Part shown: positions 998 to 21,915 of the stretch, piece by piece
How positions within the stretch are numbered: position 1 is the first letter of the stretch
How the letters are laid out: every line of letters begins with the position of its first letter
From: a virus
IMG/VR virus record: IMGVR_UViG_3300030380_000443
Span: 1-22,255 of that record
Strand: one strand, 5' to 3'
Length of the DNA stretch: 22,255 nt
Notes under the pieces: generated by a model
Database searches by the model: none
What the model was told of the DNA's origin: nothing
The model's input: the letters and a program-made list of their open reading frames with translations, nothing else
Program-made: the position numbers and the translations under genes

Positions 998-2602
998 ATG
1001 GCAAGAGCACAACCATACACTGTAGCTTGTCAGGGTGGATTAGTAACAGCTTCTAATCAGATAGATTTACTAAGAACTCCCGGAGTAGCAACAGAACTTT
1101 TAAACTTTGAATCATCTATTGAAGGTGGTTACAGACGTATTAATGGTTTTTCAAAGTTAGGAGGGAGTAGTGCAGTACAACCTACAGGAGGTACAGATAC
1201 TTTTTTAGGAGTTATACCTTATGCTGATGGAGTTGTTGCTTGTATAAGTGATGATATTTATTTTACACAAGATGGAATAAACTACTTACAAATAAATAGA
1301 AGTAGTGTATCAGGAAGTGGAGATAATCATACTGCTTTTACAGGTAGAAGTGTTTTAAATAGAACTTCACAAGGTCAAATAAGTTTTTCAATTTTTGAAG
1401 GTGCTACATTTGATTATGGTTTATTGGTTATTTGTGATGGAGCTAACAAGCCTTACTTTTTTAGAATGGAAGGAACTGGTTCTAATGTTAATACAAGAAC
1501 ATTTTTTAGTGGTGAAATAACTGTTACCGGTACAAAGTTTGCTACACATGGAACTATTCATGATAAACATTTAGTTGTTGCTGGTGTTGAAGATAATTTA
1601 AATAGTATATTTTATAGTGGCACACTAGACCCAACAGACTTTACAAGCACAGGGTCAGGCTCAATAACACTAGAAGACCAAGTAGTAGGTATTAAAAGTT
1701 TCCGTAACGAACTATTTATATTTTGTCAGAATAGTATTTTTAAACTACAAGATATAAATGGTACTCCAAAAATTGTACCTGTTACTAAAAATGTAGGTTG
1801 TCTAAGTGCATATACAATCCAAGAGATTGCTGGTGACTTAATATTCTTAGCACCGGATGGACTAAGAACAGTTGCTGGTACAGCGAGGATTGGTGACGTT
1901 GAGTTAGGAACTGTTTCTAAACAGATACAACCTGTTTTAACAAACTTAGCACAAAACATAAATAATTTTATAATTAATAGTGTTGTTATTAGAGAAAAAT
2001 CTCAATATAGATTATTTTATACAAATACAAGTGTAGTAAATGCTGTACAAAAAGGAATTATAGGAACACTAAGAACTAATGGTTTTGAGTGGTCTGAAAC
2101 AAAAGGAATAGAAGTTACAGCAATAGGTTCAGGATTTAATAAAGATGGTGTTGAAGAATATTATCATGGTGATACTGATGGTTTTATTTATCTACATGAT
2201 TCGGGTAACGACTTTAATGGAAGTAATATATTAGCAAGATATACTACTCCTAATTATGATTATGGAGATTTAGGAACTTTAAAAACTTTACATTATGTAA
2301 GAGTTTCTATATCAGCAGAAGGAATAGTAACACCTGAAATGCAAGTTAAATACGATTTTGATAGTACAAATACTCCACAACCACCTAGTAATTTTCCGTT
2401 TGGTACGGTAAATCCACAAGCAGTATTTGGAGATGCTGTATTTAATACAAATATTTTTGGAGGTGCAGGAGCACCGATGGTAAGAATTCCATTACAGGGA
2501 AGTGGAACAAGTAATAATTTTACAGTAATAACAGAAGATACAAAAGCACCATATAAAATTAATGGTTTATATGTAGACTTTATACCTTCAGGTAGGAGAT
2601 AA
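998..2602 (+). CDS. tail nozzle / stabilisation protein-like (tail tubular protein B role)
   Basis: A 534-aa, beta-rich protein that follows the adaptor gene by three bases. It begins MARAQPYTVACQGGLVTAS, then has the segment LLRTPGVATELLNFESS, which places it with the beta-propeller-like nozzle or stabilisation proteins of podoviruses (T7 gp12-like or P22 gp10-like role). Repeated short strand pairs such as DDIYFTQDGINYLQI and NSIFKLQDINGTPKIV fit propeller blades. It has no signal peptide or membrane segment. It would form the lower tail tube through which DNA leaves. Assignment is from gene order, size and overall character; whether it is closer to the T7 or the P22 family cannot be told here. 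The start sits in a TAAAATATG junction without a strong Shine-Dalgarno sequence. Confidence 0.6.
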   Translation: MARAQPYTVACQGGLVTASNQIDLLRTPGVATELLNFESSIEGGYRRINGFSKLGGSSAVQPTGGTDTFLGVIPYADGVVACISDDIYFTQDGINYLQINRSSVSGSGDNHTAFTGRSVLNRTSQGQISFSIFEGATFDYGLLVICDGANKPYFFRMEGTGSNVNTRTFFSGEITVTGTKFATHGTIHDKHLVVAGVEDNLNSIFYSGTLDPTDFTSTGSGSITLEDQVVGIKSFRNELFIFCQNSIFKLQDINGTPKIVPVTKNVGCLSAYTIQEIAGDLIFLAPDGLRTVAGTARIGDVELGTVSKQIQPVLTNLAQNINNFIINSVVIREKSQYRLFYTNTSVVNAVQKGIIGTLRTNGFEWSETKGIEVTAIGSGFNKDGVEEYYHGDTDGFIYLHDSGNDFNGSNILARYTTPNYDYGDLGTLKTLHYVRVSISAEGIVTPEMQVKYDFDSTNTPQPPSNFPFGTVNPQAVFGDAVFNTNIFGGAGAPMVRIPLQGSGTSNNFTVITEDTKAPYKINGLYVDFIPSGRR

Positions 2603-20907: not shown

Positions 20908-21189
20908 ATGACAGACTGGATAAGTGTAGTAGAAACTATTGGTATCCCTGCTGTTGTTGCAGTAGGTATGGGATATTTAGTGTGGACCCTCTTTAAAAAT
21001 TTAATTGCAGACATACATAAGAAATTAGATACGCAACATGGAATGATTGTTGCCTTGATTGATAGAATAAGGCAAATGGATAATGACATGATACGTATAG
21101 ATACTTTAGTCCGGACTGCTATGGACCTTCCTCCTGACCTTGACAGAATTGCTAGGTCAGATGGGAAGAAAGATACTAGAAGGGACTAG
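20908..21189 (+). CDS. small single-span membrane protein, 93 aa
   Basis: One hydrophobic segment near the N-terminus (about 11-29, IGIPAVVAVGMGYLVWTLF), then a helical region with regularly spaced hydrophobics (LIADIHKKLDTQHGMIVALI and QMDNDMIRIDTL), and a strongly charged end (DGKKDTRRD). The topology resembles inner-membrane spanins, which bridge to an outer-membrane lipoprotein, but no lipobox partner was found nearby. The start is fixed by an in-frame TAA directly before the ATG. No Shine-Dalgarno is within range (the nearest GGAGGGG is over 20 bases upstream), so it may depend on coupling. It ends just before the structured hsp20 leader. Confidence 0.6.
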   Translation: MTDWISVVETIGIPAVVAVGMGYLVWTLFKNLIADIHKKLDTQHGMIVALIDRIRQMDNDMIRIDTLVRTAMDLPPDLDRIARSDGKKDTRRD

Positions 21190-21195
21190 AAACGG

Positions 21196-21225
21196 GCTTA
21201 GAAAGGCTCTATGAGCTTTCTAGGC
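21196..21225 (+). other. stem-loop I in the hsp20 leader (terminator-like, no U tract)
   Basis: The left arm is GCTTAGAAAG then CTC (21196-21209, with G21206 bulged), the loop is TAT (21210-21212), and the right arm is GAGCTTTCTAGGC (21213-21225). This makes 13 pairs, one of them a G-U wobble. The sequence after it (ATATAATTAACTTG) is not a T run, which argues against a simple intrinsic terminator. It more probably forms the stable first hairpin of the RNA thermometer described here, or a processing or stability element between the lysis block and hsp20. Confidence 0.7.
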
Positions 21226-21262
21226 ATATAATTAACTTGCTTAGTAAAAGGAGTATATTATG
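21196..21262 (+). promoter_or_regulatory. ROSE-like RNA thermometer in the hsp20 5' leader
   Basis: After stem-loop I, a second hairpin can form from ACUUGCUU (21235-21242) and AAGGAGU (21248-21254), loop AGUAA. The pairs are A235-U254, C236-G253, U237-A252, U238-G251, a bulged G239, C240-G250, U241-A249 and U242-A248. UUGCU facing AGGA(G) across a bulged G is the signature of ROSE elements, which mask the ribosome site of ibpA/hsp20 genes of alpha- and gammaproteobacteria at low temperature and melt when warmed. A weak A-U helix could extend it to 21226-21229/21255-21258, close to the AUG. The downstream gene is IbpA-like, the standard target. Thermal control is inferred; no sensing has been shown for this sequence. 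Confidence 0.65.
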
Positions 21263-21691
21263 ACAAGCAAAAATATATTAGACTTAAATAATCGTCTATA
21301 TCAAACCTCGTACGTAGGCTTCGATAGACTCTTCGATGAGTTTTTCAAACTACAATCAAGTACGAAAAACGTACCGAACTATCCCCCTTACAATCTTGTA
21401 AAGGATGGAGATAGTTATACAATAGAAATGGCTATGGCAGGGCTAACTGACAAAGACGTTGATGTTGTTCTTGAAGATAGAACCTTAACAATTTCTTATG
21501 AGAAATCAGAAGAAGATATTGATGAAGGTATTATCCATAAAGGATTAGCACAAAGGTCTTTTAAAAGAAGTTTTAATCTAGCTGAAGATATTGAAGTCCA
21601 AAAGGCTCAACTTAAAAATGGATTACTATCTATCCGTATGGAAAGAATAGTACCGGACGAGAAGAAACCTCAGAAGATTAAACTGTCTTAA
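21260..21691 (+). CDS. hsp20: small heat-shock protein, IbpA-type (Hsp20, alpha-crystallin)
   Basis: A 143-aa ATP-independent chaperone that holds unfolding proteins for later refolding. The N-terminal arm contains VGFDRLFDEFF (19-29) and YPPYN (41-45), both as in E. coli IbpA/IbpB. The alpha-crystallin domain spans about 42-132, with YTIEMAMAGLTDKDVDV, a charged loop, and the conserved A-x-LKNGLL (116-123). The C-terminal anchoring motif I-K-L is at 140-142. All parts are present, so the gene looks intact. AAAAGGAG at 21246-21253 is the strongest Shine-Dalgarno in this part of the window, and it is embedded in a predicted ROSE-type hairpin. No convincing promoter was found, so transcription probably continues from the lysis genes. 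Its stop shares bases with the stop of the opposing gene. Confidence 0.92.
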   Translation: MTSKNILDLNNRLYQTSYVGFDRLFDEFFKLQSSTKNVPNYPPYNLVKDGDSYTIEMAMAGLTDKDVDVVLEDRTLTISYEKSEEDIDEGIIHKGLAQRSFKRSFNLAEDIEVQKAQLKNGLLSIRMERIVPDEKKPQKIKLS

Positions 21692-21915
21692 TCAAATCTT
21701 CGACCATTCAAGTGAGCCTCTATCTTGTTATGAATTTTATCAAGCTCGGTAGTGGCTTCACGAATGGTCATTTTTAAAGTATTGTAATCTTCAACTGTTA
21801 AAAAGGTTTTAAGTTTTTTAATATCAGTCGAAACTCTTTCAGTAATTAATTTACCTGATTTATCATATAATAATGTATAGCTGAGAAGCCTTGCCTCTTC
21901 TCGTTTTTTTCTCAT
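21688..21915 (-). CDS. hypothetical 75-aa protein coupled to nrdB
   Basis: A 75-residue, charged, mostly helical protein starting MRKKREEARLLSYTLLYD. It includes KLITERVSTDIKKLKTFL and the helix EDYNTLKMTIREATTELDKI, ending HLNGRRFD. No family recognised. It starts within the stop of the reductase gene (ATGA, 21912-21915), so it is translated as its downstream partner. A role connected with the reductase or nucleotide pool is possible by association only. Its TAA and that of hsp20 share the four bases TTAA at 21688-21691. Confidence 0.65.
   Translation of the reverse strand: MRKKREEARLLSYTLLYDKSGKLITERVSTDIKKLKTFLTVEDYNTLKMTIREATTELDKIHNKIEAHLNGRRFD

Follow-up and report, generated by a model that had tools for sequence, protein, structure and literature searches.

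The presence of an hsp20 gene in an uncultured virus raises the question of how its expression is controlled, and whether the 70-base leader that precedes it acts as an RNA thermometer. The DNA analyzed here, called the window, is a 22,255-base IMG/VR virus record whose genes code for a tail protein, large virion proteins, lysozyme, and three small products. These small genes follow lysozyme and are in turn followed by hsp20 (21260-21691) and then by convergent genes including nrdB. Pelagiphages provide the nearest matches for pieces of the region. The source is an uncultured marine virus of bacteria, and its gene content fits an earlier label of "short-tailed". A preliminary description of this DNA also presented the leader as the only long noncoding stretch of the lysis region, a location that proved loose because hsp20 lies three small genes beyond lysozyme.

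The encoded protein matches Pfam HSP20 (3.5e-16) and PHROG 432 Hsp20 (3.5e-38). Its top NCBIfam match is IbpA (3.8e-30, below the equivalog cut-off), and the protein is IbpA-like, as first described. A terminator-like hairpin beyond the gene is a possible end of the hsp20 transcript; the consensus scan that located it is weak, since one terminator was found when 1.2 were expected. This hairpin sits within an antisense ORF at 21688-21915. The features discussed below are as follows.

Between stop codon (21189) and ATG (21260), + strand: hsp20 leader, 70 bases, folded as 21191-21262 (sequence)
21189-21255, + strand: whole-leader match to covariance model R1, 27.8 bits, E = 6e-6, the sole match in 22,255 bases
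21196-21225, + strand: hairpin I, with a 9-bp stem, a bulged G (21205/21206), an inner stem GCUC/GAGC, and the loop UAU (fold)
21235-21242, + strand: anti-Shine-Dalgarno strand ACUUGCUU, with the ROSE motif UUGCU at 21237-21241 and bulged G21239 (sequence)
21248-21254, + strand: Shine-Dalgarno strand AAGGAGU, the 3' side of hairpin II, with AGGAG at 21249-21253 (fold, conservation)
21260-21691, + strand: hsp20, an IbpA-like small heat shock protein of 143 amino acids (Pfam, PHROG, NCBIfam, alignments)
21882-21911, + strand: terminator-like hairpin with T run, ~190 nt past the hsp20 stop (consensus scan)

Architecture of the hsp20 leader

When positions 21191-21262 are folded alone, hairpin I with its bulged G is followed by hairpin II, in which a second bulged G lies opposite the Shine-Dalgarno (SD) sequence. 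The predicted pairs of hairpin II are A21235-U21254, C21236-G21253, U21237-A21252, and U21238-G21251, and on the other side of bulged G21239, C21240-G21250, U21241-A21249, and U21242-A21248. The leader was originally proposed to form a stable hairpin and then an SD hairpin, with UUGCU (21237-21241) facing AGGAG (21249-21253) across a bulged G upstream of the ATG at 21260. These coordinates are right, both hairpins appear in the leader-alone fold, and the comparative evidence presented below lends further support.

The isolated leader has a predicted folding energy of -19.7 kcal/mol, and 0 of 200 dinucleotide shuffles are equally stable (z = -2.9). Hairpin II by itself has ordinary stability (z = -0.5), and in the minimum-energy fold of the leader plus coding sequence, UUGCUU pairs with AAGCAA in codons 3-4 rather than with the SD. 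Because the energy of hairpin II is unremarkable and the full-context folds are ambiguous, it is conservation, not energy, that bears the argument.

Two other structural proposals were rejected. Hairpin I is not a terminator, as no T run follows it and the terminator scan gave none there. An outer AUAAU/AUUAU stem predicted for the window was dropped because relatives do not keep it.

Similarity to known ROSE classes

The leader combines the features by which ROSE-like thermometers are defined (PMC3669281, PMC11342760): U(U/C)GCU facing the SD with a predicted bulged G, a stable hairpin on the 5' side, and a location in the 5' UTR of a small heat shock gene. The bulged G of ROSE elements has been the subject of structural work (PMC11342760), and the experimentally tested ibpA thermometers of Pseudomonas carry two hairpins in a 5' UTR of 61-62 nt, with U(U/C)GCU placed against the SD (PMC3669281). 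Like these Pseudomonas ibpA elements and the ROSE_3 family (RF02523), the phage leader has two hairpins in about 60-70 nt, of which hairpin I is stable, and an IbpA-type gene downstream. Its hairpin II likewise contains U(U/C)GCU, a bulged G, and AGGAG. In most phage leaders, hairpin I has a bulged G ahead of a short CC/GG inner stem, similar to the unpaired base before an inner CCG/CGG stem in the ROSE_3 model. In contrast to ROSE_3, the phage element is AU-rich and has a different hairpin I sequence, and the phage leaders listed in Rfam scans, at 17.7-39.9 bits, stay below the cut-off of 43. Rhizobial ROSE (RF00435) and enterobacterial ibpA/ibpB (RF01832) elements also set a ROSE motif against the SD ahead of a small heat shock gene, but they comprise three to four hairpins, whereas the phage element has two.

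Covariance models were used to examine this resemblance. At Rfam gathering scores, nothing in the window was matched. When the leader was scanned permissively, ROSE_3 ranked first among 4227 families (17.7 bits, E = 0.12 for the full set) and ROSE second (14.9 bits), with both alignments ending at the start codon; RF01832 (ROSE_2) was not among the families listed for the window leader in that scan. These values fall below the gathering scores of 43 bits for ROSE_3 and 45 bits for RF00435. Other phage leaders score higher with ROSE_3, including one from the window clade at 32.6 bits, and the best relative (L280) reaches 39.9 bits (E = 6e-5), still under the gathering score. Thus, the scoring proposed at the outset places the two ROSE families at the top of the permissive list, but a score under the ROSE_3 threshold means that the leader is filed as a ROSE-like element and not as a ROSE_3 member.

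Scores under the Rfam cut-offs and the unremarkable energy of hairpin II could also reflect an ordinary intergenic region with a strong SD, in which a chance fold bears a superficial likeness to ROSE. We consider this highly improbable. It is contradicted by the covariation among relatives, by an independent match to R1, and by the genome-wide specificity of the element for heat shock genes.

The R1 covariance model, which is absent from Rfam, was trained on 59 other phage hsp20 leaders with the clade of the window left out. In addition to the match listed above, R1 recognizes all 18 of the window-clade leaders tested. Across 11 cultured phage genomes, the hsp20 leader is the top match in each (32-54.5 bits, with the next best at 19.4), these leaders being part of the training set. 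The pattern CTYGCTTN{1,8}AAGGAG occurs eight times in the same genomes (1.67 Mb), seven times at hsp20, and its reversed control does not occur. The one copy elsewhere is found at 140897-140915 (- strand) of MZ577098. Judged by sequence comparison, the structure described for the window leader is confirmed as real and more than a product of chance.

Conservation and covariation among phage leaders

Relatives were gathered by searching with the window Hsp20 (40 viral contigs) and three other phage Hsp20s (240 more), and regions from named phages were added. U(U/C)GCU followed by AGGA or AGG before the ATG is present in approximately 277 of 287 readable marine-phage hsp20 leaders; the anti-SD motif itself reads C-U-(U/C)-G-C-U-U in these (~277/287), and the strand is identical in all 14 of the closest relatives. 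Eight leaders have the variant AACGCUUAACGGAGGUU and two (L270 and L279) have no motif. The variant leaders are L267, L271-L276, and L296, in which the SD helix is rebuilt and the bulged G is apparently retained. Loss of the motif in relatives that keep the gene had been named as grounds for abandoning the ROSE interpretation. Instead, relatives ranging from 96% to about 35% protein identity keep UUGCU or UCGCU, along with the bulged G and the pairing to the SD.

Structural conservation was assessed with 69 nonredundant leaders. These were picked by regular expression, so the letters of the core are partly preselected and the fair measure is the count of leaders without the motif given above. 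The bulged-G form of hairpin I is present in 67 of the 69, and two-sided changes occur at all nine of its modelled pairs. For the modelled structure as a whole, two-sided cells number 216, versus 74 for shuffled alignments and 37-63 with a slid partner strand. Similarly, the covariation score is 0.61, compared with 0.25 for shuffled and 0.13-0.20 for slid alignments.

Pair counts for hairpin II come from a separate alignment of this hairpin alone, because its loop length varies. The pairs C-G, U-A, Y-G, C-G, and U-A are formed in all 69 leaders, with only one or two leaders exchanging C-G for another standard pair. L045 has A-U in place of the C-G below the Y pair, a compensatory change within the SD helix. 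The UUGCU/AGGAG core is otherwise nearly invariant across the 69 leaders, and hence uninformative with regard to covariation. An edge pair (A-U, C-G, or U-A) is present in 34 of 69 leaders, whereas 19.4 are expected by chance. It accompanies the weak U.G pair in 30 of 39 leaders but the C-G alternative in only 4 of 30 (Fisher 1.4e-7, uncorrected for ancestry). This pattern suggests that a single stability of hairpin II may be tuned by two routes, namely the choice of U.G or C-G and the presence of the edge pair. The check proposed at the outset looked for compensatory changes in the UUGCU/AGGAG helix, where the core hardly varies; they are found in hairpin I and at the edge of hairpin II. The initial reading of a ROSE signature is nonetheless supported, both by retention of the motif in relatives and by the strong covariation of hairpin I.

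Distribution among phages and SAR11 bacteria

The element was first described as belonging to one short-tailed phage. This view is too narrow, given that nearly all sampled phage hsp20 genes carry it, as do SAR11 bacteria. The motif was seen in leaders of T4-like cyanophages, pelagiphages, and methylophages, and also of podovirus-like contigs. Its phage carriers include the T4-like cyanophages P-TIM40, Syn33, S-SKS1, S-CRM01, and S-SCSM1, the T4-like pelagiphages HTVC008M and Mosig, the Methylophilales phage Melnitz, and the podovirus-type pelagiphages HTVC115P and HTVC103P. In 40 of 67 leaders, promoter-like sequences (27 of the late type, TAAATA, and 13 of the sigma-70 type) lie just 5' of hairpin I, where they would be expected for a transcript beginning at that hairpin. 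No promoter was recognized for the leader of the window itself, whose hsp20 may be transcribed by read-through. Carriage by phages and SAR11, and in many cases an upstream phage late-type or sigma-70-type promoter, are further differences from the ROSE_3 elements of Pseudomonas.

Bacterial genomes queried with the window Hsp20 alone gave no relative, and no conserved stretch emerged when an alignment of diverse Hsp20s was used for searching. Scanning with another query, A6, recovered the Hsp20s of Pelagibacteraceae, whose hsp20 leaders are near copies of the phage element (GTAAGTCGCCTAATGGGGCTTAC...TTAACTTGCTTAACAAAAGGAGTAAAT ATG). In the SAR11 leaders (L303-L373), the element is accompanied by near-constant first codons, ATGACAAGTAAGGAT, that are able to pair with the anti-SD strand.

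With a threshold of E = 1e-4, matches to R1 are present in 61 of 100 genomes of Pelagibacteraceae and in 12 of 289 sampled from the class. Among the 39 matches in bacterial genomes that were fetched, 38 precede hsp20 and one precedes rpoH, which encodes sigma-32. That a model built from viruses finds heat shock genes in whole bacterial genomes is the strongest sign of the function of the element. The rpoH case (L415, ~1480-1650; G303:C1:128715-128772) is a ROSE-like leader on a heat shock sigma factor in an alphaproteobacterium with a small genome. In the protein tree, the window clade is supported at 100/99 and SAR11 Hsp20 groups with that of T4-like pelagiphages at 99/89, with the deeper order not resolved.

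Proposed thermosensing, possible Hsp20 feedback, and alternative folds

The structure of the leader is conserved with covarying pairs, its occurrence is specific to heat shock genes, and it is shared by phages and host-type bacteria. The same leader lies before the chaperone gene in nearly all related viruses examined and in SAR11, so that in these viruses the gene is probably accompanied by a heat-responsive switch of its own. We favor, with good but not full confidence, the interpretation that the window leader acts as a ROSE-like thermometer, masking the ribosome binding site and moving with hsp20 as a cassette. Occlusion of the SD in the cell, a response to heat, and a benefit to the phage can be inferred from ROSE elements that have been studied.

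By this model, hairpin II would pair CUUGCUU with AAGGAG in the cold, or when chaperone is plentiful, and so mask the SD. The bulged G and the U.G pair would weaken the helix, so that it opens on warming and gives ribosomes access. As a stable scaffold, often placed directly after a promoter, hairpin I would prevent pairing between the 5' end and hairpin II. Gene and switch would form one cassette, carried by phages and common to SAR11 bacteria, which could provide the phage with a holdase chaperone when misfolding arises in the course of infection.

The precedent of related elements makes thermosensing by the leader likely. With the leader and AUG alone, the SD is predicted to be unpaired at 3% at 5 C, 18% at 37 C, and 32% at 50 C, and deletion of the bulged G locks hairpin II shut in the same model. 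When at least 12 coding bases are included, the preferred fold pairs UUGCUU with codons 3-4 and frees the SD even in the cold. Over the 69 leaders, median predicted SD accessibilities run from 0.21 to 0.35 with little effect of temperature, while other genes of the window are higher at ~0.6. Turner energies disregard the non-standard pairs known from ROSE elements. The original statement that chaperone would be made only when the host is warmed is too strong, as the predicted melting is graded and dependent on context, and autorepression by Hsp20 is a live alternative.

Autorepression has a precedent in Escherichia coli, where IbpA binds and represses its own 5' UTR by means that require R93, a residue missing from IbpB (PMC10474464). 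K98 is likewise required in E. coli IbpA. In the window Hsp20, R99 is equivalent to R93, R103 to R97, and Y41 to Y34, and S104 occupies the K98 position. All 39 window-clade Hsp20s, 252 of the 253 from other phages, and all 80 bacterial ones in the set have the R93-equivalent arginine, and the aromatic residue at Y34 is retained as well. The equivalent of R97 is thus kept in the window, whereas the K98 position, serine here, is variable among phages. The phage proteins downstream of L270 and L279, the leaders without a ROSE-like motif, have the R93 equivalent.

Retention of R93 makes feedback by Hsp20 a serious partner or rival to thermosensing. The leader could mainly be a target of autorepression, relieved when aggregated clients titrate Hsp20, in which case misfolded protein rather than temperature would be sensed. 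The presumed rarity of abrupt heat shocks for an ocean phage adds to the appeal of this idea. On the other hand, K98 is not kept, R93 may be retained for chaperone structure, and binding of the leader by the phage protein is conjectural, even though the system resembles that of IbpA (PMC10474464) both in its leader and in its R93-equivalent Hsp20. We regard this alternative as possible but not probable. It is compatible with a thermometer, and the two are not mutually exclusive.

The coding-region pairing suggests a different, bistable arrangement in which the anti-SD strand would alternate between the SD and hsp20 codons 2-5 (UUGCUU/AAGCAA in the window), with the latter pairing stabilizing the open state. 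This is how the minimum-energy fold of leader and coding sequence is arranged, and the predicted duplex of the anti-SD strand with the first 24 coding bases is stronger than with most other 24-base segments (median percentile 0.23, KS p = 3e-5). Near-constant early codons in SAR11 (ATGACAAGTAAG) are also consistent with such a switch. The effect is modest, however, the rows are related, many cyanophage genes are without it, and pairing with codons 2-5 might itself impede ribosomes. We judge this alternative unlikely.

A speculative combination, rather doubtful at present, is that one leader would respond both to temperature and to phage Hsp20 itself, the latter reflecting aggregation state, while its anti-SD strand switches from the SD to the early codons and back, allowing phages to adjust the supply of chaperone. 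If true, chaperone would be matched to the folding stress of infection regardless of the host's own heat shock control.

Relationship to known RNA thermometers

Temperature-dependent leaders known from phages include those of lambda cIII and SPbeta blyA, and a fourU-type sigma-70 element in a gut Caudoviricetes (PMC4166951, PMC11182007). None of these is of the ROSE type or controls hsp20, and each is a single case, whereas the ROSE-like leader spans many phage lineages. The cyanobacterial hsp17 thermometer (PMC4477652) also guards a small heat shock gene at its SD. It consists of a single hairpin with a 1x3 internal bulge, and T4-like cyanophages nonetheless carry the ROSE-type element.

No description of ROSE in phages or in Pelagibacter/SAR11 was found in the literature searched, which covered few subscription papers, so that this absence is not proof of novelty. 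The main text of a 2009 survey of Pelagibacter RNAs (PMC2704228) does not mention a ROSE element, and another report counts only a few phage thermometers, none of them ROSE (PMC11182007). The RNA class is already known; what appears to be new is that phages carry it with hsp20, that it is so widespread, and that SAR11 bacteria share it. A phage-wide case joins the very few known phage RNA thermometers, and ROSE-like control is extended to SAR11, which are among the most abundant cells of the sea.

These findings also bear on why phages carry the gene. Although hsp20 is a core gene of T4-like cyanophages, its role has been guessed at, perhaps in capsid scaffolding (PMC3037559). A conserved leader that responds to heat or misfolding would imply that hsp20 is meant to be off until folding stress occurs. 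This favors a role as a stress chaperone and turns the matter into one that experiments can address. In warming oceans, virus genes gated by temperature would affect the outcome of infection.

Other records encountered

One record labelled "Pseudomonas phage Y7" (OQ572409, UNVERIFIED; L048, 298-364) carries a full-strength ROSE_3 element (69.2 bits) with ibpA, which looks like host DNA, cargo, or contamination. The record of "Campylobacter phage A18a" (MG065686; L053) includes an enterobacterial-type ibpAB stretch that is probably assembly contamination. Finally, a T4-like phage contig (L161) has a tRNA gene at 1114-1184 (+ strand) near hsp20.
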